Position numbers and translations under genes: made by a program. Below, piece after piece: positions 3,109 to 20,681 of a stretch of DNA of 64,000 bases. Within the stretch, counting starts at the first letter, position 1. Each line of letters starts with the position of its first letter. The notes below the pieces were generated by a model. The model had not been told where the DNA came from and did not search any database. It saw nothing but the letters and a program-made list of their open reading frames with translations. This DNA is from Gyromitra esculenta (Eukaryota > Ascomycota > Pezizomycetes > Pezizales > Discinaceae): assembly GCA_038503075.1 (NCBI GenBank), contig JBCAML010000021.1:1302001-1366000 (forward strand), written 5' to 3'.

Positions 3109-3226
3109 TACAACGACTAGCCTCGTACCCAGGCTGTTAGGGTTAGGGTATACAGAAGCGTGGCGTCATGGCAACGGAGCTAGTCCATATTTGGGTCTTT
3201 TCAACGTTTGCTTCCTAACAGCCTGG
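3109..3226. repeat. Left TSD, TIR and subterminal inverted repeat of the large transposon
   Basis: TSD at 3109-3117, TIR at 3118-3137. A 13-bp segment overlapping the TIR, CCAGGCTGTTAGG (3129-3141), recurs inverted at 3214-3226, leaving a 72-bp loop. Within the loop, next to the TIR, is GTTAGGGTTAGGGTA, which resembles a short telomere-type repeat. The matching arrangement at the right end suggests a functional terminal structure, for example a protein-binding pair. Confidence 0.8.
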
Positions 3227-3288
3227 TGGATTTGCTCTCCAGAACCTTCACCCACAATTTGATCTCATCAATTCCTCTAGCGCTCGAT

Positions 3289-3697
3289 TCTCACGGATGG
3301 CTTCTTGTTAAGCCCTTCGGTATCCCCGAAGGTGAGCAGTGCTACTTAAGCGAGAAACCAATACGTTCGAGGAGTGCGGTATAGTCTACAGGTCCTACGA
3401 CGAGTATACTTCAAGGCGAAGTATCGGCAATGTTTCACAGCGGCAGTGAGGATTCTAAGGTAGAATCGAAGTAGAATTATAACAGATACAGCAGAAGTGA
3501 AACGAGAACGTTGCTTAAGAAAAGAAGAAAGAAAGTACAAAGAACAAACGAAATCCTTCACTTAAATACCCCGCTTTTACCCAACAAAACCCAATAGCCG
3601 ATAACACCCGAAATACAATAACATTATCTTACAACCGAAAAGCACGACAACCGTATACTCGAACCCTAGCCCTATATCCAATCCTTAATCCGTGAAA
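3289..3697 (-). repeat. 3' LTR of the gypsy element
   Basis: 409 bp, starting TCTCACGG and ending CCGTGAAA, so its ends are short imperfect inverted repeats. Apart from four transitions in the first about 60 bp it matches the LTR at 9024-9432. The pol stop codon (3685-3687) lies inside this LTR. Confidence 0.92.
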
Positions 3698-6600
3698 GTA
3701 GCCCCCCATTTTAAGCGTGAGCTCCTGCGAACCTTAGAAATAATAGCCGTCGTCGAGGAAAGAAACGCATCAAGGGCAGCAGTTTCTAGGAGATCTTCCG
3801 CGGGTTCCCAGGTGGGATGGGCATAGCCGGTCCACTCGACAAGGTATTGTTGTTGTCCATGGTATGTTCGTTGTTCGAGGATTTTTTCGATAAAATATTC
3901 CTCCTGTTCATTAACAACGACTGGTGATGGAGGGGGTATAACTTGTCCCGGAAGAGGATCGTTGGCAGCAGGTTTTAACAAAGAAACATGAAAAACAGGA
4001 TGGTATTTAACTGAAACGGGAAGATCAATTTCATAGGCAAAAGGGGATATTATCTTCTTAATAAGATAGGGTCCCATCCACTTCCAGTCCAATTTTCGAG
4101 CATTGCGTGTTGTCCTAATGTTCTTCATTGAGACGAAGACCTGATCGTCGACTTGATAGGACGGGGCTGGCGTACGATGCTTATTAGTGGCAGTTTCCTG
4201 GATATCTTGTGCCGTCCTTATTTGCGTTCTTAAATGGTCATATAAGTCTTGCATGGTCTGAGCAAAGGAGGCCGCATCGAGGCTTTGGGAAGAAGCCTTC
4301 ACAGGAACTATGGAGGTATCAAAACGTGGGTGGTAGCCGTAATTTGCAAAGAAAGGGGAGGCTTTAGTACTGGCTGACTCTTGGTTGTTGGCCGAGAATT
4401 CAGCCATCGGTAGCCACTTGCTCCAGTCTTCCTGTTGATAGGACACATAGGATCGTAAGTATTGCTCCATAACGGCGTTAAGTCGCTCTGTCTGTCCATC
4501 GGTTTCAGGGTGAAACGCGGTGGACATTCGAGATTGAATTCCCAAGTGTCGGCAAAGCTCCTTCCAAAAGTGGGCCGTGAATTGGGTACCTCGATCGGAT
4601 GTAACGTATGTAGGCAACCCGTGGAGTTTCCAGACATGGTGGAGATATAGATTAGCTACCTCCCTGGAATTAACCGTAGTGTTACAGGGTATCAAGTGGC
4701 GCATTTTTGATAAGCGGTCTACTACTACCATGATCGCATCATAACCATCGGATTCTGGGAGGCCTGTAACAAAATCCATAGAAACTTCCTGCCATGGGCG
4801 ATTAGGGATGGGTAGAGGACGAAGAACACCTTGTGTACGTTGGGTAACCGGCTTAGCCTTTTGACAGATATGGCAGTTGCGTACATAACGGCCAATCGAC
4901 TCTCTCATTTTCGGCCAGTAAAATCTTCTACTTATAAGCTCGAAGGTTTTATCTCGTCCTGGGTGCCCTGCCGCGGGAGTATCGTGATGTCTTTTGATTA
5001 GTTCTAAGCGAAGGGGGTCGAAGTTTGGCACATAAAGGTTTCCTCGGTAATAGAGTTTATCGTTTTCCTCCGTGCACTCGCTAAGGGTTATTTCCTTCGA
5101 CTGTTGCTCTTTATTCTTTAGGGCTAGAAGTATTTTTTCAGGAAATTTATCAGCGATATATCCTTCCAGAAAGAGTTTTTCTAGGGGTGCATCCAGTTCA
5201 GCGGCTTCATTTGACAAAGAAGCCGATAACAAACTTAGCTTGGGATCGACATTTTCCTTCTTTAACACCACTTGGCTCTGGTGTGCCAGTCTTTCATCCC
5301 CTTCCTTGGGGAGATCTCCTGATCTCCTAGTGAGAGCATCGGGTTTCCCTCCCTGGCTTCCTGGTCGATACTTGATCACGAAGTCGAAACGTGATAGGTA
5401 TTCAGCCCATCTGGCTTGTCGACGGTTCAGTTGCTTAGTACTCATGAAGTACTCAAGGTTCTTATGGTCGCTAATGACATCGATGGGGTGCTTTGAGCCT
5501 TCTAGTTCCGGTCGCCATTCTTCAAACACTCGGATTATGGCTAATAACTCCTTGTCGTAAATCTCATAGTTGCACTCGGCGGGGGAGTGTTTCTTTGAGA
5601 AAAATGCTACCGGGTGTAATACTCCTGCATCATCGTATTGAGATAGCACTCCTCCGGATACGAAGTCGGAGGCGTCGGTTTCCACAATGATTTTTTTATC
5701 AGGGTCGAAGTGGATAAGGATCGGGGCAGTGGTGAAGGCATATTTGAGATTTTCGAAAGCTATGTCAGCTTCGACAGACTATTCGAAGAGGATACCTTTC
5801 TTGGTAAGGGCAGTAAGGGGGGCAGCCAGTTTGGAGAATCCCAAGATGAACTGTCGATAAAAATTGGCGAAGCCTAGGAATGCCTGAACATCTTTTACAC
5901 TCTTCGGTGTTCCCCATTCCCTGACGGCCTTGAGTTTCTCTTCGTCCATCTTAATGCCGTCAGGTGTGAGTATTAGGCCTAGGTATTTGGTCGTTTGTAC
6001 CTCGAACTCACATTTCTCCTCACAGGGATGACTGTTGTCCTTGTTGTCGTGCACTTTCCGGACATGGCTTTGTTCGGCGAAGGTATCACTGTAGATTTGT
6101 AATATCATCTGCGTGATGCCGTACAAAAAATATCTAGGTATTCGGTGAGGCAGTCATTCACGAATCGTTGGAAAGTTCCCGGGGCATTAGTTAGACCGAA
6201 TGGCATAACCTGGTACTCGTAAAGGCCATAGCGCGTGCGAAAAGCGGTTTTCCATTCATCCCCCTCTGCAATGCGCACTTGATGGTATCCATCACGAAGG
6301 TCTAGCTTAGTGTACCATTGTGCCTTTGCAAGTCGGTCTAGGGTTTCACGGATGAGAGGGGAAGTATAGCGATCCTTAACAGTGATAGCATTAAGGCCTC
6401 GGTAATCCACACAGAGTCGTAAGGACCCATCGGCCTTTTTGACGAAAAGGACAGGGGATCCAGCAGGAGAGGAACTAGCGCGAATAAATCCCTTCTCGAG
6501 GTTATCTTCGATATACTTCTTTAGAACGATTAGTTCTTCTCGGGACATGCCATAGAGGGGTCCGAAAGGGGCATCCTTTCCCTCCATTAGTTGTATCTTA

Positions 6601-7340
6601 TGATTATACGAACGGCGTGGGGGGAGTCCTTGAGCTTTACTCTTATCAAACATATCGAGAAAGTCGTGATACTCCTTTGGAATTCTAGATTTCCATTCCT
6701 CTTTGGTTGTCGTTTGGTCTATGATTTTATTAATCTCATAGAGGGACATGGCGTAAGCTTGTGATGTCCGTTTCCTGGTGAGGGTTCTGAAGCTAGCGGC
6801 ACCAATGAATGACATGTTGAGCCGAGGAGGTGTCGAAATGGCTGAGGTAGATACCGGAGGGGAGTATGGTGCGCAATGGGTTCTGCAGAGTTTAGAATTA
6901 AACTCAATGCGTTTTTTGGCGAAGTGGAGTTGGACGTCGTGATAGTTCATCCATGGGATTCCAAGAACGAGAGGGTAATGTCCTAGCTGAGTAACAAAGC
7001 AGGGGGCCTGTTCCTGGTGTTCTTGAATGGAGAGGTTGATGTTGGCGATATGGGTGATGTCTCCTGATGAAACTGGACGACCATCAATCACTTCAAGTTG
7101 CCTGGGGTTTTTTAAAGGTAGAAGAGGTAGGGAGTGGTGACTCGCAAAGTCTTTATCGATGAAGGCAAATCCTGAGGCTCCAGTGTCCAATAGTGCGTGA
7201 GTTTTAATGGTTTTATTATTATGGGAAATGTTACATGCTATAACGAAATGTTCCCCGTCCAATTGATCCTCCACGCACATATCCGATACTGAAAAACCCG
7301 AAATAGAAAATGCCGACAAAGGTAAAGAAATGGGAACCAA
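3685..7340 (-). pseudogene. pol: Gypsy pol: protease, RT, RNase H, integrase, chromodomain (broken)
   Basis: The polyprotein of the Ty3/gypsy element. Visible in order: aspartic protease (LLDTGASG), reverse transcriptase (CVDYRGLN, KLDLRDGYHQVRI, MPFGLTNAPGTFQ), RNase H (METDASDF, YEIYDKELLA), integrase zinc finger (H...H...CHICQ), the integrase core with its three acidic blocks (MDFVTGLP, DRGTQF, HPETDGQTERLN), a GPY-type segment (WMGPYLIKK) and a C-terminal chromodomain (YLVEWTGY...WEP). Two lesions disable it: a frameshift at about 6105-6126 that destroys the YxDD catalytic motif of the RT, and an in-frame TAG at about 5779 between RT and RNase H. From 5685 to 3685 the integrase half is an uninterrupted frame. 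The chromodomain is expected to steer insertion to marked chromatin. Confidence 0.9.
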
Positions 7341-7369
7341 GGCAGGGTCACTGGTCAGCCTTGGTTGGA

Positions 7370-8701
7370 CTAGTTTAAAGACTCATTGGAGGAGTCTGCT
7401 GATTCTAATGCAAAAAACTGGGGAGGAAGAGGTGGTGGTGGAAGAACGGAGGCGGGGGGTGTTCTATTGGCGGGTGGTGCAGTGAGGGCTCCCCTCATAG
7501 TAGGTTTTTTAGGGGCAGAGGGACAGCTGGCGTAGGAGTGATCGGGGGCGGCGCAGAACATACATTTCCCAGTGGAGCGGCGCCACTGTTTTTCTTCCTC
7601 CGAAAGCTTTCTTCTTCCATTTATCATCGTATATCGTTGATCCTGCAGGGGGCGGGACAGGTTACTGGTCCTTCCGAAGGAAAGATCCATTGGGGCAAGG
7701 CCGCCTGGTACGAATGATGAGGCAGAGACAAAGGGGGTCATCGCTTGAGAACTGAATTGTCCCATATTGTCTCTTGTATTGCCTCGTTTTTCGGCTTTTC
7801 GGGCTCGGATGCGATTGTCCAGGCGGGTAAGGGTGGTGATCATTTCCCCGAGGTTGGTGGGGACAGCGGTGGCAAATACCATGGCTTCTTTCAACTCTTC
7901 TGACATCCCGTGCTCCAAGGCATCCATCTTCGAATTTTCATCGAAGTTGAGTTGACCCATGATGCGTTGGAAATCGGCCAGGTAAGCAGAGAAGTCGCGT
8001 TTTCCTTGACGGAGCTGGTGAAGTTCCCTTCGTGCGGTACCGGTGGGGTCGGGGTCTCCAAAGGCAGTTTCTAACGCGGCGATGAGAGCGGCTGCACTGG
8101 TCCAGGTGGTGAGGCCAGAGGGAAGGACTGTGTGTCGAACTTGTTCCAGGGCTGCTCCTTCCAGACGGTTAATCGTGTAGAGAATCATGGTGTTTTCATC
8201 CGCGAACCGGTCTCTGTTAACAGCGAGTTTTGAACGAAGTTGAAGGATGAAGCCGGGGAGTTTGACTCTAGATCCATCGAATTTCTCTGGATCTGGCATA
8301 CGTTCGGAGCGATGGGTAGAAGATGTCGGCGGTGGGGGAGTGGCGGTGAGGTTTGGTGGAGCCGGCGGGGCTGAGAGATTTGCGCGGGCTTCGTTTCACT
8401 CTTGGCGGAGTCTAGCGATAAGGCTGGCTGCTTCTGTAACCCTTTGATCCTGTTGTGTGGCGTGTCGGAGGGCATTGTCGATTTGGATTTGAGCAGTGCT
8501 GAGTTTTACTTCAGCGTCTTTCTCGTTATCCTGAAGGATGCTTATTTGGTCCTCCAGGCTCTGGTTCAATTCTCGAAGTTGATTGTACAACTCAACTGGG
8601 TCGTCTCTGTATGCTTTGGCAAAGGCTTCCTTAGTGGGGAAGCCTTAGGCTGCGACGGCGGCTCCTTCTGTGTTGGAAGAGGGGTCAACGGGGGAACTCA
8701 T
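7370..8701 (-). pseudogene. gag: Gypsy gag with zinc knuckle (two nonsense codons)
   Basis: The nucleocapsid/capsid gene of the gypsy element. The likely start is the ATG at 8701. The N-terminal part (about 8396-8590) is Gln/Glu-rich and looks like a coiled coil. A retrotransposon-gag capsid domain follows (about 7700-8290). A CX2CX4HX4C zinc knuckle (CMFC...H...C) lies near 7530-7575. Two in-frame stops interrupt it: a TAA at about 8647, replacing a likely CAA, and a TGA at 8396-8398, replacing a likely CGA. Both are C-to-T changes. Pol starts in another frame 30 bp downstream. Confidence 0.85.
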
Positions 8702-8749
8702 GATGAGTTAGCGGTAGGAGGTGTAGATGAGGAAGCAACGTAATCTCAC

Positions 8750-9009
8750 TTCCTCAATTGTTGCTAGAGTCTGCGTTGTTACAGACACTTGCGACGGTAT
8801 TGACGCGGAGGTACTCGGAATCTAGCCACTCAGGTAGGACTAGCGAGGGCTCAGTGGTCTCTGTAGGTTTTCGCGATGTCAAACAAGGGAACAAACACAC
8901 AAAGGATTGATGAATCCAAGTTGTGAAACCCATGAAGTAAGTATGACTCCAAGGGGGTTTGAACACGTGGCCTTGTATGGGAAAAGGTACAGAGTATACC
9001 GCTGAGCTA
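8750..9009 (-). mobile_element. tRNA-derived SINE inserted at the gypsy LTR/leader junction
   Basis: 260 bp flanked by a perfect 20-bp direct repeat, AGGAAGCAACGTAATCTCAC (8730-8749 and 9010-9029). On the minus strand its 5' end has a perfect RNA polymerase III A box (TAGCTCAGCGG, 8999-9009) and a B-box-like GTTCAAACCC (about 8955-8964), spaced as in a tRNA. The tRNA acceptor and T stems do not pair well, so it is not a working tRNA gene. The body of about 190 bp downstream is unrelated to tRNA. Long TSDs and internal promoter boxes are the hallmarks of SINEs mobilised by LINE machinery. Insertion duplicated the first bases of the LTR and the adjacent leader. Confidence 0.75.
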
Positions 9010-9023
9010 AGGAAGCAACGTAA

Positions 9024-9432
9024 TCTCACGGATGGCTTCTCGTTAAGCCCTTCAGTATCCCTGAAGGTGAGCAGTGCTACTTAAGCGAAAAACCAATACG
9101 TTCGAGGAGTGCGGTATAGTCTACAGGTCCTACGACGAGTATACTTCAAGGCGAAGTATCGGCAATGTTTCACAGCGGCAGTGAGGATTCTAAGGTAGAA
9201 TCGAAGTAGAATTATAACAGATACAGCAGAAGTGAAACGAGAACGTTGCTTAAGAAAAGAAGAAAGAAAGTACAAAGAACAAACGAAATCCTTCACTTAA
9301 ATACCCCGCTTTTACCCAACAAAACCCAATAGCCGATAACACCCGAAATACAATAACATTATCTTACAACCGAAAAGCACGACAACCGTATACTCGAACC
9401 CTAGCCCTATATCCAATCCTTAATCCGTGAAA
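9024..9432 (-). repeat. 5' LTR of the gypsy element
   Basis: 409 bp, same length as the LTR at 3289-3697. It differs from it by four transitions, all in the first about 60 bp (coordinate sense); three fit CpG to TpG/CpA change. Followed by the TSD TCGAT at 9433-9437. Confidence 0.92.
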
Positions 9433-9559
9433 TCGATCTATAGAGAATATTAGCACGCGGAATCCTTTGCCGCAGCTTATCACAGCCCTCCGCGTACCCA
9501 ATTTCTCCAGAGCGCCTAAAAATCGATCGCGCGCAGAGAATCCTCCGCGCAGCGCATAT

Positions 9560-12333
9560 ATGACTTCCGAAGAGCGCCGCACAACTTCAGGCCGCTCTTT
9601 CCGCGGCTCATATGCTGAAGAAATAGATCCTTTGCTGTCTTCCCCGCTGCGCGACTTGCCTAGCTCGCCATATTCACCACCTACTTATCGCGTACCACAT
9701 TCGCCGCCTGCTAATAGCTCACATTCGCCGCCTACACCCGAAGATTTCTCTGCCTCGACTCTCGCCTCCCGTCTAAACGCTATACAGGCCTCTCTTTCTA
9801 TGTACGGCTTTACTAGTATTGGGGAATGCCTACTCGCTGAGCTCCGCTGCGAAGACCCTCACATACGGCGCAGGGGCTCCCGTTTCGTTCGATCAGAATA
9901 CCTGGGCAAAATATTCTGCGCCACCTCTGACCACCCGAGCTTTTCGTTCAATATCATGCGGGCGGACAATTCCTTCCGCTCTAGGCTCGTTGACTTGGTT
10001 GCCGCGATAGTGGCCATAGAGATGGAAGCTCTTGTTGGCTCCCAGGTAATGCGCAAGCCCGTAAATCAATTCACACATGAATATCTCGCCAGCTTCTCTT
10101 CTTCCGCGCTCGCGCAAGCCCAAGAACGGCACGCCCCAACGGCCAAGCGCTTGATTGGTATTATGGTCTCTCCAGTACGACTACAGCACGAATCTTTCCA
10201 TTTCAGACCTGCGAATGATACCGAAGATGAGAGAGTTGCCGACGACGATGCCAGCGACGGAGGCAATCATAGCGCACAGAATTCTCCGCCCCGTGGTCGT
10301 CGGAGGGACCTCATATCTACTGCTGCACTCTGTGTTGCTACATATGGTCGCTCTCAGCGTGCTAACGCTTTGCAAGGTATCGTTGGATATTACCTTAGTG
10401 CTTGCGACGCAGGAAAGCGCGTCATAGAAACTTTGCACTGCATGGGATTCTCTGTCACGTACGAATCGGTCCTCAAGGCCCTGAAAGCAAACGCATTAGC
10501 TGTGCGTGAAATGTTGCGCCAGCGGGCGCGTGTTCACCCATTCTTCGTTTCCTTCGACAACATGGTCTTCTATCAGCGCGTGAAAACCCACCTCATGGGT
10601 AATCGGCAGCATCAGCGCCACTATACTGCTGGCTATATAGCTTTCTTAGAGGGCGCGCAGGGCAAGGGATTCCTCGTCCGTACCGCTATGCTTGATTGGA
10701 ACCGCGCGGCGGAGGTAGGCATCGCGGATATCATGATATCTAGAAACACGCTCCAGTATGCCCGCGAAGCGGCGGCAGCGAATATTTGGGCTGTGTTATA
10801 CAAGCACTTCCGGGTATCCATGCGCAAGAACATGATAAAGTATACCAAGGATGGAAATGTTCAGCGCCATGGATATGTCCCCTTTACTGCGCCGGAGATT
10901 TTCCCGCTGCCGGTCAAAAAGTCGGATCTACATACAATGACGGCCTTCTCAAAGAACGAAGCTGTGATAAACGAAGTTATAGAGATTCTCCGGGGTATTA
11001 TGAGGGAGCTAGATCTTCCTGCCGAGCAACTTATCGACAAAGTCGTGCTATTCAAGGGCGATTATATGACTGTGCGCAACATCATGTAGGTCATCAGTCA
11101 CTGATTCGAGCGCAGTGATTCTGACGCCCTCGCAGAAAGGCTATATACCGCCGCCAGGAAGACGACCCTATCCAACAGATGTCTTTCGTTGAGCCTGTAA
11201 TCGGGTTTTTCCATTTGCAGATGTGCATATTGGGCACGATATACAAGGCACACTGGGGCAACGAAGGTTCGCTAGACCCTACCAGCATACAACGTTTTGC
11301 TAGGATGATGGGCAAGCCTGCGATAGTATCGCCGAAGGTCAAGGATTTCCGCGCATACGAAGCCTTCTTCGATGAGCTTTTTGATGCGCACGTGATAACT
11401 CTCGCCGCGCAATCTCTGCGCTCCGAAACCTACGAGAAGCTGAATTCCGACCTCGCATCAACCGATTGGCGGGCCCTCATACAATCCATGGTAGACAGGA
11501 TAATGCCTTCCGCGCAAGGGTTTTCTACCGTACACCACATGCGCTTTGATGCATATGGCGAGAAAGTGCCCCTCGCAGAGAGAGACATTATATATGAGAA
11601 CTTTATACTCTTTTTGCAGCAGGGTTTGATGTACAGGGATTTCCATGCGGCAATCAAAGCTGGAGATTCGGGCAGATTGGAGAATATACTTTCTATATGG
11701 ATGACACAGCTCCACGGGACGCAGAATATCAATTACCCTAGAGAGCTGATTCACCACATGGCTTGCCTGCAAAAGATATGGTCACCCGCGCTGCGTGACC
11801 TTTGGAGGCGCAACTGCTTGGTGAATCCTTCCGGCAGGAAAGGCGCATGGATGCCCGACGATTTGTTCGGCGAGTATGTGGTCCGCGAGATCAAGGCGAA
11901 GATCCATCCGAGCAGCAATCGGCAGTCTGATACTCATCTCCATGAAACTATTGCCTGTCAGGTCATGTCCCTATTCGCCTGCAAAGCGAGCATGCACAGA
12001 GAATTCCGTGCGAGCGACTACGGGCAATCGTCAACCTTGGTGAGCAATGCTTCCGATGTGGCTCATATAGTCCGTACCCTTATTGGAGAAGGTGCCGCTG
12101 TCCTGGCCCGCGGCAGGTGCAGCGATAACCCTGCACATCAAACCTACTGGCAGGCGCAGGATATGCTAGCTGTCGGGGCGCTCAAAATTGCGACTGGTCT
12201 GCCGCTCAGAGACTATAAGATGCGCGCGCGGTTCAATTGGCGCACGTATGGAGCGTTTGAAGAGGATCTTGGTACCGATGAAAGGGAAGGTGGATATTTG
12301 GATCCGGATAGCAGTCTCGATGACCTACTGTAG
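9560..12333 (+). CDS. DUF6589 protein, candidate transposase of the large element (907 aa)
   Basis: Two exons, 9560-11085 and 11136-12333, with a 50-bp phase-2 intron. It rejoins the conserved stretch FKGDYMTVRNI with KAIYRRQEDD and FHLQMCILGTIYKAHWG. This is the layout of the fungal DUF6589 family as I know it. Residues 1-60 are Ser/Pro-rich with repeated SPPT/SPPA. A YGRSQRANALQG motif lies near residue 265, FDN with D333 and KGD with D501. The family has no established function. Two conserved Asp motifs at the ends of predicted strands, in the largest gene of a TIR element, suggest an RNase H-like (DDE) transposase; this is inference. The ATG at 9560 is the first in frame; the frame is open about 90 bp further upstream without an ATG. 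No lesion is visible, so this may be the one intact mobility gene. Confidence 0.75.
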
Positions 12334-12463
12334 TTAATAAGACAAAGAATCCTACAGAGAATCTCTTGCGCCTATAAGTAGTAGCTTGTTTCGCGAGTCC
12401 AGCTCGTTTCCTAGGTATAGTTTCTTCGCAGCGCTCAAATTCTTTGCTCTTGCTGTCACAAAT

Positions 12464-12926
12464 ATGGTTGGCTATCACACGATTATTATGGCGCCCGATC
12501 CTGACTGGAGCCAACCTCCGCCACCAGGGGCCCCGCCTTTGACCGCTTTCTACACAATGCGGAATAGGATGATATTAGCTCGGGTCGCAGAGCACAACCG
12601 CGAGGCGCGCAGAACTAACCGCGTCCTCTACCTTTCCGGGCACGCATATTTATTGATCCCTATAATGGGGGAGACTGGCGCTTCGATCGGCCAGAACTTT
12701 CCGAAAACTGTGGAAGATATATATGACTCGACTCGTATGTATTAGGCCCAACCTGCGCGCAGAATCTTTGGTAGCTCCACTAATTGTACCCGTAGCGGCA
12801 TCACGTCTGGCATTCGAGGCTTATTATGACCTGAATAATATCTCTTGGCTTGACTATGGGAGCGCCACTACTGTGAATGAGCGCATTAGGAAGATAATGG
12901 TTTTCATTGGTGTGCTAGATGCATAG
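12464..12926 (+). CDS. Small element-encoded protein A (tandem paralog of the next gene)
   Basis: Two exons, 12464-12734 and 12796-12926, with a 61-bp phase-1 intron (GTATGT...GTAG), giving 133 aa; the second ATG at 12488 would give 125 aa, closer to its paralog. Shared motifs with the gene at 13181-13613 are EHNREARRTNR.LYLSG, a Pro-rich N-terminus, WLDY, and a C-terminal RKIMVFIGVLDA. Exon 2 is 131 nt in both and the intron phase is identical, so they arose by duplication of a spliced-structure gene. I know no family for it. It lies 130 bp after the DUF6589 stop, inside the transposon, so it is probably an accessory protein of the element. Confidence 0.65.
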
Positions 12927-13180
12927 GGTTTGGAGAGAGAAGTGTCGCGAGCGGATAAACATGTGCATGCTTTGCTTTGTTTAAGGTGGGATCGTGTGTA
13001 TATCATTGTCAAAAAAAGTATTAGGATGTGGTATAGCGCAATCAAACAAAGAAGATAGGGAGACAAAGAATATTGCGACCTTCCTTTCATATATATTGCG
13101 CCCGCTCGTGCCCTCCCTAGAGCGCGCGCGGTATTCTCTGCGCCTCACGTCGGACGCCCATTTGATTGATACCGCAAAGT

Positions 13181-13613
13181 ATGGTCCATCCGCTCATGTT
13201 CGCCGCCGATCCCACATATACTGTCCCTCCGCTCACCACCATAGATGAGCTTATAGCAAATGATCTTGTCCTCATGCAAGTGAGAGAGCATAACCGCCAG
13301 GCGCGCAGAACAAACCGCGCTCTCTATCTTTCGGGTTCAGCTTATACCTTTATACCGATTAGGAAGCAAAACAGGGCTTCCATAGGTGGCACTTTCCCCC
13401 AAACTGCGGACGAGGTTCGGGTATTTCCAAGTGAGCTCGTAGTCCGCGACTGTTTTCTTCTTATATCTAACTATCTTCTTAGCAGCACGGATTGGGCTAT
13501 TCTCAGCGTTCTACGGTCTTTTTGGGGTGACTTGGCTTGACTATAGGCGCGCTTTTACGGTAAAGCGCCGCCGCAGGAAGATTCTGGTCTTCATAGGTGC
13601 GCTTGACGCGTAG
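13181..13613 (+). CDS. Small element-encoded protein B (tandem paralog)
   Basis: Two exons, 13181-13430 and 13483-13613, with a 52-bp phase-1 intron (GTGAGC...CTTAG, branch CTAAC), giving 126 aa. It repeats the plan of the preceding gene: EHNRQARRTNRALYLSG in exon 1, and WLDYRRAFTVKRRRRKILVFIGALDA at the C-terminus, here with a run of basic residues. The basic tail and the small size would fit a DNA-binding accessory factor, but that is a guess. No known domain was recognised. Confidence 0.65.
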
Positions 13614-13702
13614 GCCCCCAGGAGCGGAGAGTGATATATATTATAGGCACAGAATTAAGCATGTAGAGACTTTGTATTATTGAACAGAATGCTATACTAT
13701 AA

Positions 13703-16700
13703 TCACTCATCTCCTGTTTTAAACCTGATATTTGCCTTTGCTCTTGCTGGGCCTCGGCGCACGTTGGGGGTTGCCGGGGGAATTTGTACTATCGGAGTCG
13801 GAGGTTCGTCTCTCCTCGGTGTCGACGGAACTGCACTGATCGACGTGGATTTTTGCGTGGCCTGGCGCTTTGGAGTGGGCGCGGGTTTCTGCGCGGGCGG
13901 GCGCTTTGGAGTGGGCGCGGGTTTCTGCGCGGGCGGGCGCTCTGGAGTGGGCGCGGGTTTCTGCGCGGCCTGGCGTTTTGGAGTGGGCGCGAGTTTCTGT
14001 TTGGCCTGGCGCTTTGGAGTGGGCGCGAGTTTCTGTGTGGCCTGGCGCTTTGGATTGGGCGTAGGTGTCTGCGCTGTCGCCGATTCCGTAGCTATAGGAG
14101 AGGGAGAATTCACTCTTGAGGGCTCGAGTGACTGTTCGTGATTCTGTGTACTGGTGGTGGCTATATCCCGCCGCTGCAGCAGAGAGGGTATAGCGAAGAA
14201 TTTGTTGTTTCTATCTTCCCGAGGCTCCGACCGCGTCTGAAGATTGAGTCGCTGAGCTTTCTCATTCCATGAAGAGAGTTCATGGGCCGCTAAAGATTTC
14301 GCCGCATTCTTACCCGCAGTTGCACTTCTCTTTACTAATACGCGGGCTTGAATCGCTGCGTCGTCCTTAGAGATTCGTCGCTGCGCTAAGAGTAAATTTG
14401 CTTGCTCAGGGATATTCACGTCGAGCTGGTCCTCCGGGATGTGATCGAAGTCGTAGCGCCGCCTCCGGGGAGCTGGGGGTGGGGGGTGGATGGACTGTAG
14501 CGAGAGAATAGCGCTGAGCAGAGAATCCGCCGCGGGGTCAAGAATTGAGTCTTCGAGGCTTATCGCAGGTAACAAAATAGAGGCAAGATCTGATTTTGAT
14601 TTGATATTTGGGATTGAGTTGACGATTCTCTTTATTGCCAGGTCTCCCAAAAACCCGTTTATCGGAAGAGTTGGGTATAGAGGTTGGACCCAGCGCGCAT
14701 ATTCCTGTGCCCTCCAGTCTTTCAAGGCTGCAGTTAAGGCGGAGGTATTCATATCTGAATTCAGCGACCTGGAATTAATTGCCGCTAAGTGTTTCTCGAA
14801 GTATGCCATAAACAGATTCTCAATGTGCTCCTCTGTATGTGTGAAAGGTATGGTGCGCCGCAAATCAAATCCATGGATCAGATAACTCTCTTCAGCATAG
14901 TCGTTCTCACGGTTGAGTCCCTTGTTTAAGCCCTTCGGTATCCCCGGAGGTGAGCAGTGCTACTTAAGCGAGGTATCAACACGTTCAAAGAGTGCAGGAT
15001 TTCTACAGGTCCTACGATGGATATACTTCAAGGCGAAGTATCGGCGGTGGTTCACAGCGACAGCGAGGATTCTGAAGTAGAACCGAGTGAGATTATAACT
15101 TGATACAAGAGAAGTAAAACGAGAACGTTGCTTAAGAGAGGAAGAAGAGAAAGAACAAGAACGACCAAAATCCGTCGCTTAAATACCCCGCTTTCTTTAA
15201 CAAAACTCATAACCGAAAGATAACCGAACTACAAAGAGATTGTACAACCATCCAAACGACAATACAATCAGCAACCAAACCACGATTCCTTACCCAACAT
15301 CAATCCATGAAAGTCGTGGGATTCTTCGTTGCGGCGGATGAAGAAGCAGTTATCGCAACAATAAGAAGGTGTTGCGCTTTCGGGGGTTGAGAGTAGACTA
15401 TCGCCATTTATCCAGGAAGGGTCTCCGAAGAGAGCCAGCCCCGCACGCCATCTGCACCCCGCCGTATTCAGTAGGAAGAGAAGCGATGGGTCCACTTTAT
15501 CGAGAGTGCAACGGATCTGCTGTGCATCTAGCGGTCTGTATATGCGGGATATAAAATCATGAACCTGGGCCTGCCGAGACTCCTCTACAGTCTGACGCCA
15601 GCCATAAAAATAGCCCCTCTCATTAACGGCATCATCATTCTCTTGGGGTAGTAGGTAAAGATCCTCGGCGAAGATAACCGCAAGCGCATTGCGGGAAGGA
15701 TCTCTTGCCGCGCGTCCAATTCGCTGCCAGACCGATGCCAACGTCAAGCGCTCAACCAACCCCCACTGCACGATGATATCCACGTCAGGGAAGTTGATTC
15801 CCATGGCGACAACTTCGGTGCCGACGAATATTCTATGCGTACCCTCCCTAAACCCGCTCATACTTTGGCTGCGGGTGGAAGGTTCCAATGCTGCGGTCAT
15901 AACTTTGACGATATCGCGCTCTCGGTGGCGCAGAGCTGGATTCAGTAGACCTCGCAGGTGTTTGGCTATTTTGTGAGCTTCATCTACATTATCCACGAAC
16001 ACGAATGCCTTCCGTATTGTAAATGACGCAGTTTTAGCGGGGCTGATCAAGAAGTTCAGCAGCGCATGAGAACTCACGCGCGGCATAAGGATAGGCACAA
16101 CCGCTAGGGTGACATTGTTTCGGCCTAGCGGGCGCCAATATATCACTGCGGGGGAAGCCATCAGAAGCACACGATGTATATATCCCAGGACGGTGGGCGT
16201 GAGAGTGGCGGAGAGACAGAGAACCGGGATAGAGCGGAGGTGTGCGCGCAAATCTCCGAGATTCGCATATTCATAGCGGAATTCGCGGTATCCCCAGACG
16301 ACGTGCGCCTCGTCGATAGCTATGGCCAGGAGATTATTCATGAATCTAGATTTACCGTCTCGCAATATATTGGTCCAGAAGTACGAGTCGGATGAAAGGA
16401 GGGCTTCCGGAGCGGCATAAACAACCTTATATTTTCCCTTTTGGACCTCCCCCCAGATTCCAGGGTGTGCGAGGATTTCCTCGGCCGTCAAAGCAACTGC
16501 TGGTATATCCTTTGACAGAAGCCATGAGACCTGATCATGCATAATGCTCAGCAAGGGAGATACGACTAAGATTATTCCGTAGCGCTTCATGTAAGGAAGG
16601 CACTGAAAGATTATGCTTTTGCCCGCCCCAGTGCCTGCGCTGACCACAACATCTCTCTTCATACACACGTCAGCAACCGCCTCCGCCTGCCATTGATATA

Positions 16701-16827
16701 AGGGTATTCTAAAGCGCCTGCGAGCAATTGCTTGTGCCTCTCTAATGAAACGATCACAAATCGCTGTTTTTTCAACCTCAGAACTGGGAATCCAGGTTGG
16801 CGCAGATATTCCTGTTCCCCGAGCCAT
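13703..16827 (-). pseudogene. RecQ-like DNA helicase with long C-terminal extension, split by a solo LTR
   Basis: ATG at 16827. Superfamily 2 motifs: Walker A SAGTGAGKS (residues 63-71), DEAH box (172-175), LSATLTP (about 205) and motif VI QRIGRAARD (about 368-376). CCDNC (490-494) fits the RecQ zinc-binding region. After residue 505 the frame runs into the LTR and stops at 15268. Beyond the LTR (14904 down to 13703) the same frame continues once a single GTCGT copy is counted, so the original protein was about 903 aa. The extension starts alpha-helical and ends in about seven copies of a 12-residue Lys/Pro/Gln/Ala-rich repeat (13850-14070). The helicase core is intact up to the break, so a truncated 519-aa product could still be made. 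RecQ helicases unwind DNA 3' to 5'; in this element it may process transposition or replication intermediates. Confidence 0.85.
14905..15312. mobile_element. Solo LTR related to the gypsy element's LTR
   Basis: 408 bp, from TCTCACGG to CCATGAAA, with a 5-bp TSD GTCGT at 14900-14904 and 15313-15317. It clearly aligns with the 409-bp LTRs at 3289 and 9024 but is far more diverged from them than they are from each other, so it is an older or different subfamily. No internal region remains, as expected after LTR-LTR recombination. It interrupts the RecQ-like gene. Confidence 0.9.
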
Positions 16828-16870
16828 GACTCGCAGACGGTAGACCCTATATGCGCACCCAAATAAAGCT

Positions 16871-17214
16871 GCGCGCAGAGAATCGCAGCTATAGAAAGGC
16901 TAAACCCTAAGCTGTTGGATATGGTCTTCGTGGACCGCGGGTATGGAGAGACGTGTAAATCGACGTGACAGCGGGGCAAGTAGCAAGAGCAAACAGCGAG
17001 CGCTCATCCAAACAGCGAGCGTTCACCCAAATAACGTAGCGCTCACCCAAATAACGTAGCGTTCACCCAAATAACGTAGCGCTCACCCAAATAATGTAGC
17101 GCTCACCCAAATAACGTAGCGCGCAGAGAATCGCAGCTATAGAAAGGCTGAACCCTAAGCTGTTGGATATGATCTTCGTGAACCGCGGGTATGGAGAGAC
17201 GTGTAAATCGACGT
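16871..17214. repeat. 96-bp direct repeat pair enclosing a 20-bp minisatellite, upstream of the helicase gene
   Basis: A 96-bp unit at 16871-16966 recurs at 17119-17214 with three transitions. Between them, 16991-17118 is a tandem array of about six units of roughly 20 bp (core AAATAACGTAGCGCTCACCC). A more diverged partial copy follows at about 17247-17315. It lies directly 5' of the minus-strand helicase ATG, so it may hold its promoter or be a protein-binding array of the element. Confidence 0.8.
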
Positions 17215-17539
17215 TGGTAGGGTGGTGGCGGTGGTAGCGGGGCAGGTAGCAAGAGCGAACAGCTAGCGCACACCATAATAAGGCTGCGCGCAAGCTATCG
17301 CAGCTAGGAGAAGGCTAATGGGAGGGATTGGAGGGATTCCGATAGAGCGCGGGCATGGAAAGGAGTGGCCGGGTGGTGTTAGGGTGGTTGGGGTTGGGTG
17401 CGCAAACTAAATGAAAAGCGAGAAGCATGAGCCAATGAGACGCACGGGGAGGGTTAGCTCTACAATAGTTATATATATAGGTAGACTATATAAAAATACT
17501 GTGAGCTCCTATAAACAAACAGCTAGTAATAGCAAGGGA

Positions 17540-17960
17540 AGAAGATATGCGCCTCGCAATAAGGTATACAAAAGAGCCGCCCAATAAAGCTAACCAAGAG
17601 ATCCCCCCGCAATAAGATATATAAAAAAGAGACCCCCCCGCAATAAGATATATAAAAAAGAGCCACCCTGATAGAGATCCCCCGCAATAAGACACCAAAA
17701 AAGAACCTCCGCAGTGGAGCTAAGAATAGCGATAGAGATAGGAAAGAGATATACCCGCCCCGCAAAGAGATATGTTAAGAGAGTAGAAAAGAAAAGAGAA
17801 GCTGTCGCAAGCAAAAAAAACTAGGAATGGATAGGAGAAAGATAAATCCGCCCCGCCATAAGGGGGACAGAGAAGCCCGCGCACTCGCCTCCTAAACGAA
17901 TAGTAGAGATACATGCCCACCCCGCAATAAGGGGCACAGAAAAGCCCGCTCGGCCGCCCG
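17540..17960. repeat. Dispersed CCCCGCAATAAG repeats in a purine-rich tract
   Basis: At least six copies of a C-rich box followed by GCAATAAG and an A/G-rich spacer, for example near 17617, 17637, 17679, 17851 and 17920. Two adjacent copies are nearly identical over about 30 bp. No gene is supported in 17315-18094. The minus-strand frames here are low-complexity by-products of the repeat. Confidence 0.6.
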
Positions 17961-18094
17961 CCGCCCAACATACTCAAAAGGGGAAGAAGAAAGAAGAAAA
18001 ACGCCCGCCCGTAGAATCCTCTGCCCATAGAGCTAGCCCAGAGAGTGTAGCAAGGGAGGGAGAAGCTATAAATACCCGCTATCCACACACGCAG

Positions 18095-20098
18095 TCAATC
18101 ATCATACTGTTCCATATCACTAGTCGAGCCGCGAGTAAGGTGAGGGGAGGAGACCGGAGTCGGGGATTTAGACTTCCTAGGAGCAGTTGCAATTGAGCTC
18201 TGGGTTGCCGTGAAGTTCTCTTCACTCTCTGCCTTAGGCGGTAGGGCCGAAGATTCCGGGGCAGGGAGAGAAGCGCGAGAAGAAGTAGCACGACTCGAGG
18301 GGCGGGCAGTAGCGGCAGCGGCAGCGGGAGTAGAAGAAGCGCGGGAAACAGGAGTCTGGAAGCCCTTGGATGGGCGCTGCGCCATGGAGTAAGGATTCTC
18401 CCCCCTACCTAACATAAACGCCCCTCGAGAAGGCGGGGGCCCAGAAGTGGGTTGCGCTGAATTTTGGGGCTGGAGGGGAGCTTGCCTTTGAGACGCAGAA
18501 CTCGCCGCTCGGAGAACCTCGGCAGCGCGCAGTTTTTCTTGCGCCTCCTGTAAGCTCTCTTCGGCTCCCTTATACCTACTATATAGGTCGCGCAGCACGT
18601 TCATCTTCATCTCGATATCCTTGGTCTTCTTGGTGACCTCCTCGGCCTCCGCGCGAATGGCTAAAGTGCGCATCTGTATGTTGTAGTTAAGGGCATCAAG
18701 CCGTTGGCCTTCCTCTTCGAGCAGACGTAGGTGGATTTGGCTCTTAGCCCAGATGTTTGACTGCGCATAAAGATCGGATACCTCCGTGGAATATCGCGCG
18801 GGCGGCTCGAAGAACGACGGAGGCTGCTGGACGGAGCCCTCAATCTCGGGGTGACTGACAGGGCGAATTATGTGCGCGCCGCTCTCCTCGAGGTCCTGCC
18901 TACGCCTTGCAACGAACGACTCCACCATGCTTTCCTCGTACTGCTTTCCCTGCGCTACAAGGGCTTCGGCTTCCTCTCGGGAGGATTCAAATTCCCGCGA
19001 AGGCTCGATTGAAGCCAGCTCAGAAGCGAAGTCACTAAGATCAGAATCGTCCGACAGAGCAGCTGCTTCTTCGTAAATGGCGGATGGAACGGGCGGGCGT
19101 GTTTTTCTCTCCGCCCACGCGCTATAGTCGCTGAGGTATTCAGCTGCTGGGGGCCAGGAATATCCACTCGCAGTACTCGGATTTGGGTACGCAGCAAAGT
19201 CTTTGGCGATAGCAGAATTGCTATAGGAGTCTGCAAGGTAAAGGTAACCAAAGACGAAGCAAGCAACCACCTGTAGGAAGATACTCTGCAACGTTTCGCC
19301 CCACCAATCACTGTCGTCGCCGGCAATTCAAGATATATACCCAGCAGGGGCGGGCTGCGTGTGCACGGCGAAAAGGTTCTTGCGGAAGACGCTCACGAGC
19401 TCCAGGCGGCCGAAGGAAATGCCGCCTTCGCAAGTCAAGACAAGCTCGGGGGGCCTGTGTTTGTTAAGCCTTGACATGTATTAGTAGGTGCCTATCTAAA
19501 ATGAGGCGGGGGCGGGGAATACTTCTCGTGCTCGTATGCGGGCTTGTAGGCTTTGAAGGCGGGTGAATTGAGGTATGCCATGGCATACTTCCTAACCTGC
19601 GCGCAAAAATGGGCCATGAATTCCTCGTAGGTGGACTCAAGGAACCCTGCAAGGTCATTGCGATACTGATGGAGAGCGAGAGGCACAATCAAATCCAGGA
19701 GCGCGTTCTGCTCGTCGGGGGTAAATCTACAGCGGACGAAGAAAATCGTGGCCCACAAAACGTAGCAGCGGCCTCTCCATTCCTCACCAGACTAGGAGCA
19801 GGTATTAGCGCAGCTAATGCCGCGCGCAGAATACCGCGCACAGATTACCGCGCGCACAAAACAGATAACGTACCTTAGCTGCCTTCATGAATTGGCGCAG
19901 CGGGTCGGGAAGAAAGTTGTCCATGGAATTGGTGGCTTTCTTTTTGCTAGGCGTGGTAGGGACCTTACGGGTTCTTAGAGTTTTGGCGGGGGTTTCAGCA
20001 GGCTCCGAATCTGCTTTCGCCGCTGCAGCTCGCGGGCGCTTCGGGGCGGAAGGTGAGGGGGAAGCTGCGGCATCCCTGCTGCGTCGCTTGAAGGGCAT
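18095..20098 (-). CDS. Element-encoded basic/coiled-coil protein, with an in-frame TGA
   Basis: Three exons fit: 20098-19874, 19791-19523 and 19469-18095. The introns are 82 and 53 bp; the second has a CTACTAAT branch site and phases match. The product would be 622 aa. The N-terminus is basic and Lys/Arg/Pro-rich like a nuclear signal. The middle has an FTPDEQNALLDLIVP segment and DSDWWGE. About 19,000-18,540 (coordinates) encodes a long Glu/Lys/Arg-rich probable coiled coil. The tail is Ser/Ala/Pro-rich. An in-frame TGA lies at 19328-19330. It is either a nonsense mutation (CGA to TGA) that leaves a 211-aa protein, or it is removed by a 30-bp GT-AG segment, which is very short for a fungal intron. 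No family recognised. No ATG lies between the TGA and the downstream part, which favours one gene. Confidence 0.6.
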
Positions 20099-20302
20099 GT
20101 TTGGCGGGCGCTCGTTTGCCTAGTGGGCGCGGGGATCTGTGTGCCGCAAGCAAGCTAGGGATTCAATTGCCGCTGAACGAGGCTGCGGACGGAGAAACCA
20201 ACGTGCGGAAAAGAATCAGTGCAAAGGGTTTAGTGGGGGGGGGGGTTCACACGGAGTTTGCAGAGGTTGAGGTTTGGGTGGAGGTTTGGGAGAGCTATTC
20301 CA

Positions 20303-20418
20303 CCAGGCTGTAGGATGGGAAGTCGAAATGTAGGTGGTTGGGGTTGATAGGGCTTAGGGTTGTGGCGGAGAATGTGGCGCCCAAAATCTACAGCCTGGGA
20401 ACGAGGCTATACAACGAC
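20303..20418. repeat. Right subterminal inverted repeat, TIR and TSD of the large transposon
   Basis: TIR ACAGCCTGGGAACGAGGCTA at 20390-20409, TSD TACAACGAC at 20410-20418. As at the left end, an 11-bp segment CCAGGCTGTAG (20303-20313) is the inverse of 20388-20398, with a 74-bp loop. The near-equal spacing at both ends (72 and 74 bp) argues for a conserved terminal architecture. Confidence 0.8.
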
Positions 20419-20681
20419 TGATCAAGTGGTGGTGTTGGGAAACTTAGTCATCAGAGTGCAGCAGTGGCCGTGCCCATGCCAGAATTAATGTCGATCGCGA
20501 GCTGACTAATGAGCGGGACTCGGATCTGATTGGTCAAATCCGTCACGTGATTGATAATAATACCTGGTGACATGAGTATATTGCAGCCTTATATTGTTTA
20601 CGCTTCCAAACTAGCATAAATCACCATCACCATATTAAACCTCCACGCCTTTAAGTCCCCATTCGTTCTAATCTCTCCATA

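Follow-up and report, generated by a model that had tools for sequence, protein, structure and literature searches.

A probable AcademH-type DNA transposon of Gyromitra esculenta with a predicted DUF6589 transposase and a RecQ-family helicase

Overview of the element

The window analysed here, a 64-kb stretch of contig C21 of Gyromitra esculenta, contains a DNA transposon of 17,292 bp at window coordinates 3118-20409. The element is very probably a fungal AcademH-type cut-and-paste DNA transposon that has been broken by nested retrotransposons, and it is matched by the published AcademH description. It is filed there because its fungal host, terminal inverted repeats (TIRs), 9-bp target site duplication (TSD) and RecQ-type helicase all coincide with the accounts of Academ and AcademH. 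The family is a new one within an already recognised, little-studied fungal transposon lineage. Its DUF6589 gene most likely encodes a DDE transposase, as predicted from three conserved acidic residues together with a transposase-like predicted fold.

Element ends and target site duplication

Both ends were read directly from the sequence. The left 20-bp TIR, TAGCCTCGTACCCAGGCTGT, lies at 3118-3137 on the forward strand and is repeated in the genome, while the right TIR at 20390-20409 is on the reverse strand, reading ACAGCCTGGGAACGAGGCTA on the window strand and TAGCCTCGTTCCCAGGCTGT as its reverse complement. The two TIRs match at all but one position, and a perfect 9-bp TSD, TACAACGAC, borders them at 3109-3117 and 20410-20418; positions 3109-3137 thus read TACAACGAC-TAGCCTCGTACCCAGGCTGT and positions 20390-20418 read ACAGCCTGGGAACGAGGCTA-TACAACGAC. 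Under uniform base composition, 0.07 inverted pairs this good and no more than 20 kb apart are expected by chance in 64 kb, and the expectation for such a pair with an abutting exact 9-bp direct repeat is 2.7e-7. The first-pass annotation had described a TIR DNA transposon with a 9-bp TSD and a size of about 10.7 kb before nesting; the ends are exact, several copies were found, and 10,730 bp are left once the nested Gypsy element and the solo long terminal repeat (LTR) described below are subtracted from 17,292 bp.

Each end also carries one head-to-head pair of the 9-mer CCAGGCTGT. The left pair spans 3129-3226 (3129 on the forward strand, 3218 on the reverse) and the right pair, located by a 9-mer count, spans 20303-20398 (20303 forward, 20390 reverse). 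These four occurrences are the only ones in the window and all lie within the element ends; because the 9-mer occurs here only as one head-to-head pair per end, the pairs suggest paired, putative transposase-binding sites. Pairs of the same type are retained in the long copy on contig C10. A telomere-like sequence, TTAGGGTTAGGG, is found at 3137-3148 just inside the left TIR and is its sole forward-strand occurrence in the window.

Related copies in the genome

The genome search covered 47.1 Mb in 23 contigs and only the best candidates were scored, so that copy counts are lower bounds. The TIR is not unique to the window, with 25 genome matches at no more than three mismatches compared to six for a reversed control. 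The second long copy, on contig C10 (1266499-1298472, reverse strand), has both termini as well as the DUF6589 and RecQ helicase genes, and is approximately 92-99% identical to the window copy over most shared blocks and 84% over window positions 16852-17880. Its TSD matches at seven of nine positions (AGTTATATT and GGTTATATC). A later insertion of approximately 4 kb, which has an A-rich tail and is accompanied by a 15-bp duplication, lies just within its left TIR. Window positions from approximately 17880 to 19471 have no match in this copy. The partial copy on contig C12 consists of a left end at 658067 and part of DUF6589, with neither helicase nor right end found, and the partial copy on C3 has a degenerate left end followed by the N-terminal part of DUF6589 at approximately 80%. 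On C15 there is only a 106-bp right end, for which no left partner was found at up to five mismatches in the 10 kb read.

Three short non-autonomous elements have perfect 9-bp TSDs: one of 1226 bp on C2 (GTATATCTC), one of 1241 bp on C11 (ATAGAAATG) and one of 197 bp on C14 (GCCTCGAAT). Among the seven copies in which both ends were read, four (window, C2, C11 and C14) have a perfect 9-bp TSD, one (C10) matches at seven of nine positions, and the putative elements on C5 and C1 have no matching TSD. Nine right-end matches were obtained, of which those on C2, C5 (at 26121), C11 and C14 were paired and read. A scan for exact TSDs covered 19 of the 25 TIR loci, extending approximately 1.5 kb inward from each, and it returned three loci with a 9-bp TSD at a matching end. 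An 8-bp match at the window's own locus falls inside the Gypsy element and is attributed to chance.

The C2 element is inserted in a repeat. Its right flank has 14 further long matches, of which 12 extend across the insertion site, beginning 4-6 bases left of the TSD. Two of these repeat copies (L073 and L074) were viewed and both read TACC-GTATATCTC-CAAAAG, with the 9 bp present once. Judged from this arrangement they are a related empty site for the C2 element, a short one, since the left side covers just those few bases and the TSD. For the window insertion, the genome search for an empty site gave only its own two flanks and the dispersed repeat in the right flank. That repeat is approximately 100 bp long (approximately 20478-20581) and has 33 more matches at 75-90% identity. 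Of the checks proposed in the first-pass annotation, multiple copies with 9-bp TSDs were thus found, the same DUF6589-RecQ gene pair recurs in a single further copy (C10), and an empty site was recovered for one non-autonomous relative but not for the window insertion.

These copies bear on the alternative that the TIRs and TSD mark some element that has enclosed DUF6589 and the helicase, two genes with no connection to it, by chance or secondarily. RecQ-like helicase genes do also occur in fungi as telomere-linked families, according to PMC4522978, but approximately 150 kb of contig C21 lie between the element and the contig end. Both genes stand between matching ends in C10, DUF6589 is linked to the left end in the C12 and C3 copies, and ends of this quality have the chance expectation given above, all of which make a secondary association extremely unlikely.

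Further insertions are nested in the C10 copy. By eye, the ORFs (open reading frames) at C10:1267433-1273999 (L025) resemble those of a non-LTR retrotransposon, including a reverse-transcriptase-like one, and several Gypsy LTRs are also present. Between window positions 9802-14489 and C10 there are 205 substitutions, of which 116 are C or G in the window and T or A in C10 compared to 33 in the opposite direction. A CpG context is seen in 96 of the 140 of these substitutions with an unchanged neighbour. On its sequence pattern, this bias is CpG decay of the kind that cytosine methylation would leave.

The DUF6589 gene and its predicted transposase

The DUF6589 gene is encoded on the forward strand in two exons. 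Exon 1 extends from the first in-frame ATG at 9560 to 11085 (Pfam PF20231, E 1.2e-8) and exon 2 occupies 11136-12333 (PF20231, E 9.6e-61). The 50-bp GT-AG intron between them (11086-11135) is predicted from the sequence, the Pfam profile positions and homologous ORFs. Profile positions 53-119 fall on one side of it and 124-408 on the other; the homologous ORFs P0002-P0005 stop shortly past the junction, and P0001 has an extra stretch there. The gene's own frame is open in the window copy.

Exon 1 carries two invariant Asp residues (codons 10556-10558 and 11060-11062) and exon 2 an invariant Glu (codon 11872-11874), conserved in the DUF6589 alignment in 25 of 25, 28 of 28 and 15 of 15 rows respectively. 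An AlphaFold2 model of a DUF6589 homologue, built from 30 rows with a predicted local distance difference test (pLDDT) score of 78, resembles the P-element, Hermes and Transib/RAG1 transposases, and its alignment with VIA-align points to an RNase H-like DDE core with a helical insertion. This model replaced an earlier one from seven rows, which was discarded at a pLDDT of 37. Sequence identity of the model to the P element and hAT (Hermes) transposases is 8-12%. With the seven-row alignment, a PDB profile search came back empty up to E 10. Apart from DUF6589, Pfam families matched the transposase rows weakly, and a tblastn search of exon 1 against plasmids gave no match. Because of the conserved D, D and E and the transposase-like predicted fold, the DUF6589 protein is most likely a DDE transposase, which supports the mobility role assigned to it in the first-pass annotation.

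An intact 805-amino-acid ORF with DUF6589 (1.9e-38) is also present on contig C22 (74062-74898, locus L062). In this ORF the second catalytic D is aligned to N and the E to K or Q, and no TIR was found at up to five mismatches across the 3.8 kb read. It is a candidate domesticated transposase gene.

The RecQ helicase gene and nested retrotransposons

The second gene common to both long copies encodes a RecQ-family helicase on the reverse strand. Its N-terminal part (15313-16899) matches the Pfam families DEAD (2.7e-15) and Helicase_C (6.9e-14), its best PDB relatives are RecQ (6.6e-26), RECQ5, WRN and BLM, and its open frame extends to 15268 within a solo LTR. It contains helicase motifs and a zinc-binding-like CCDNC motif. 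The C-terminal extension (13703-14904, reverse strand) is separated from it by the solo LTR at 14905-15312, which has a perfect 5-bp TSD (GTCGT) and is lacking at this point in the C10 copy. There, an ORF at 1287621-1288460 continues from helicase motif VI into what in the window is the 13703-14959 ORF. Because the C10 ORF continues past the point of the solo LTR, the two parts in the window are read as one gene split by it. The C10 helicase has stop codons of its own and an LTR further on, and an intact helicase gene is therefore present in neither long copy.

The larger nested insertion is a Gypsy retrotransposon at 3289-9432 on the reverse strand, a later arrival with a perfect 5-bp TSD (TCGAT) that is no part of the element. 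Its LTRs (3289-3697 and 9024-9432) are 99% identical, and further LTR copies occur elsewhere in the genome. The window copy is probably immobile on its own, because its helicase gene is cut and the Gypsy element stands between the transposase ORF and the left end.

Further open reading frames

Two small related ORFs on the forward strand (12341-12745 and 13166-13540) are apparent tandem duplicates, with a self match of 86% between 12589-12639 and 13285-13335. On the reverse strand is a 410-amino-acid ORF (18098-19327), coiled-coil-like by eye, with a single genome match and absent from the C10 copy. With a 101-amino-acid ORF at 19817-20119 it possibly forms a third gene. The Pfam scan gave no match for any of these four ORFs or for the C-terminal piece of the helicase. 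The four gene units counted in the first-pass annotation stand only roughly: DUF6589, the helicase and at least two further ORF groups are present, and the helicase is one gene cut in two.

Classification of the element

Within the Academ superfamily of DNA transposons, AcademH, as Kojima is said to have described it in 2020, is the lineage that carries a helicase. The window family resembles AcademH as a fungal TIR DNA transposon with a predicted DDE transposase, a DEAD/RecQ-type helicase and a TSD in the range of 9 or 10 bp. Its TIRs are 20 bp with one mismatch and are repeated in the genome, its TSD is 9 bp, the helicase is encoded in the window and C10 copies, and the DDE transposase is predicted from the invariant D, D and E and the fold of a homologue. 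No difference from AcademH emerged among the features compared; the window family also has extra ORFs, and at both of its ends the TIR core recurs internally in inverted orientation. According to PMC10045372, AcademH makes TSDs of 9 or 10 bp and AcademX of 3 or 4 bp, and this contrast in length seems tied to the presence of a helicase or a nuclease. AcademX, with a nuclease in place of the helicase and a 3 or 4 bp TSD, was rejected as the element has a helicase and a 9-bp TSD; the Pfam scan found no nuclease family among the eight ORFs scanned. In PMC6416283, recognisable protein domains, for example DEAD/DEAH helicase and recQ_fam, are reported for 81% of fungal Academ copies (1,568 of 1,938), and such copies are frequently annotated as host genes. 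The first-pass annotation had noted that RecQ helicases are not standard cargo of hAT, Tc1, MULE or CACTA elements and had matched the element to no named superfamily. The lack of a superfamily match is not supported, and neither is a view of RecQ helicases as foreign to DNA transposons, as the feature set is that of AcademH and RecQ-type helicases are described both in fungal Academ (PMC6416283) and in KolobokH (PMC9587614).

KolobokH is the other RecQ-bearing lineage of fungal DNA transposons and, in PMC9587614, is reported from fungi only. It shares with the window element the fungal host and the helicase, but the same paper gives Kolobok a TTAA-specific 4-bp TSD and a C/DxxH signature, neither of which is seen here. 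The TSD is 9 bp and not TTAA in the four perfect cases, and for this reason KolobokH is largely refuted and very unlikely. No C/DxxH precedes the E in window exon 2, and the sole H conserved at 90% or more between the second D and the E is preceded by G at position -3 in each of the 21 rows containing it.

P element and hAT (Hermes) transposons make 8-bp TSDs and are not known to carry a helicase, and Transib and RAG1 are associated with 5-bp TSDs. The predicted RNase H-like DDE core with a helical insertion is common to the DUF6589 protein and the P element and hAT transposases; a common fold does not amount to membership, and the window element has a 9-bp TSD compared to their 8 bp, and no C/DxxH. 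The C(2)C and H(3-4)H motifs that PMC12730594 gives for Transib/RAG1 are not among the conserved DUF6589 columns. The same source gives KDZ/Zisupton an 8-bp TSD and Plavaka a 2-3 bp TSD, and both were set aside. Helitrons, which by the definition in PMC4522978 have no TIR and no TSD, were rejected as the window element has both. Starships were also considered and set aside.

A further alternative is that DUF6589 and RecQ define a separate superfamily that is like AcademH only in helicase and TSD length. In its favour, no direct sequence link was made between DUF6589 and a reference Academ transposase. In the literature searched, with most subscription papers outside its coverage, DUF6589 was not found described as a transposase and no paper using the name was found, and the sole paper with 'PF20231' is unrelated by title. 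Against it, fungal Academ and AcademH as described in PMC10045372 and PMC6416283 agree with the window element in host, TIRs, helicase type and the 9-bp TSD, and a separate superfamily is considered unlikely. There is likewise an outside chance of a DUF6589-RecQ superfamily apart from Academ, with a P element/hAT fold, that was also the source of a host gene, the 805-amino-acid ORF on C22. Assignment to AcademH remains the preferred reading.

Proposed mechanism of transposition

As an AcademH-type element, the transposon would move by cut-and-paste. At each end the transposase would bind both the TIR and the second, inverted CCAGGCTGT site further in, before pairing the two ends and cutting the element out. 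The excised element would be joined to target strands 9 bp apart, which would account for the 9-bp TSD. In transposition and repair, the convergently encoded RecQ helicase probably acts on the ends, or on the gapped donor and target, by unwinding or remodelling them; we infer this role from the literature and from the fact that both long copies carry the helicase. The short non-autonomous relatives probably rely on the transposase of the window family or of a sister family in trans.

Implications for fungal DUF6589 and RecQ genes

As a transposon the element is unremarkable within its recognised fungal lineage, and the main gain is one of annotation: the Pfam family DUF6589 (PF20231), listed under 'unknown function', can most likely be identified as a DDE transposase. 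Fungal DUF6589 genes are therefore best regarded as belonging to transposons or as domesticated transposases, and any RecQ gene adjacent to one needs checking before it is included among the host's repair genes. The anatomy of the ends, TSD and internal sites provides a basis on which the contribution of a RecQ helicase to a cut-and-paste transposon may be tested.
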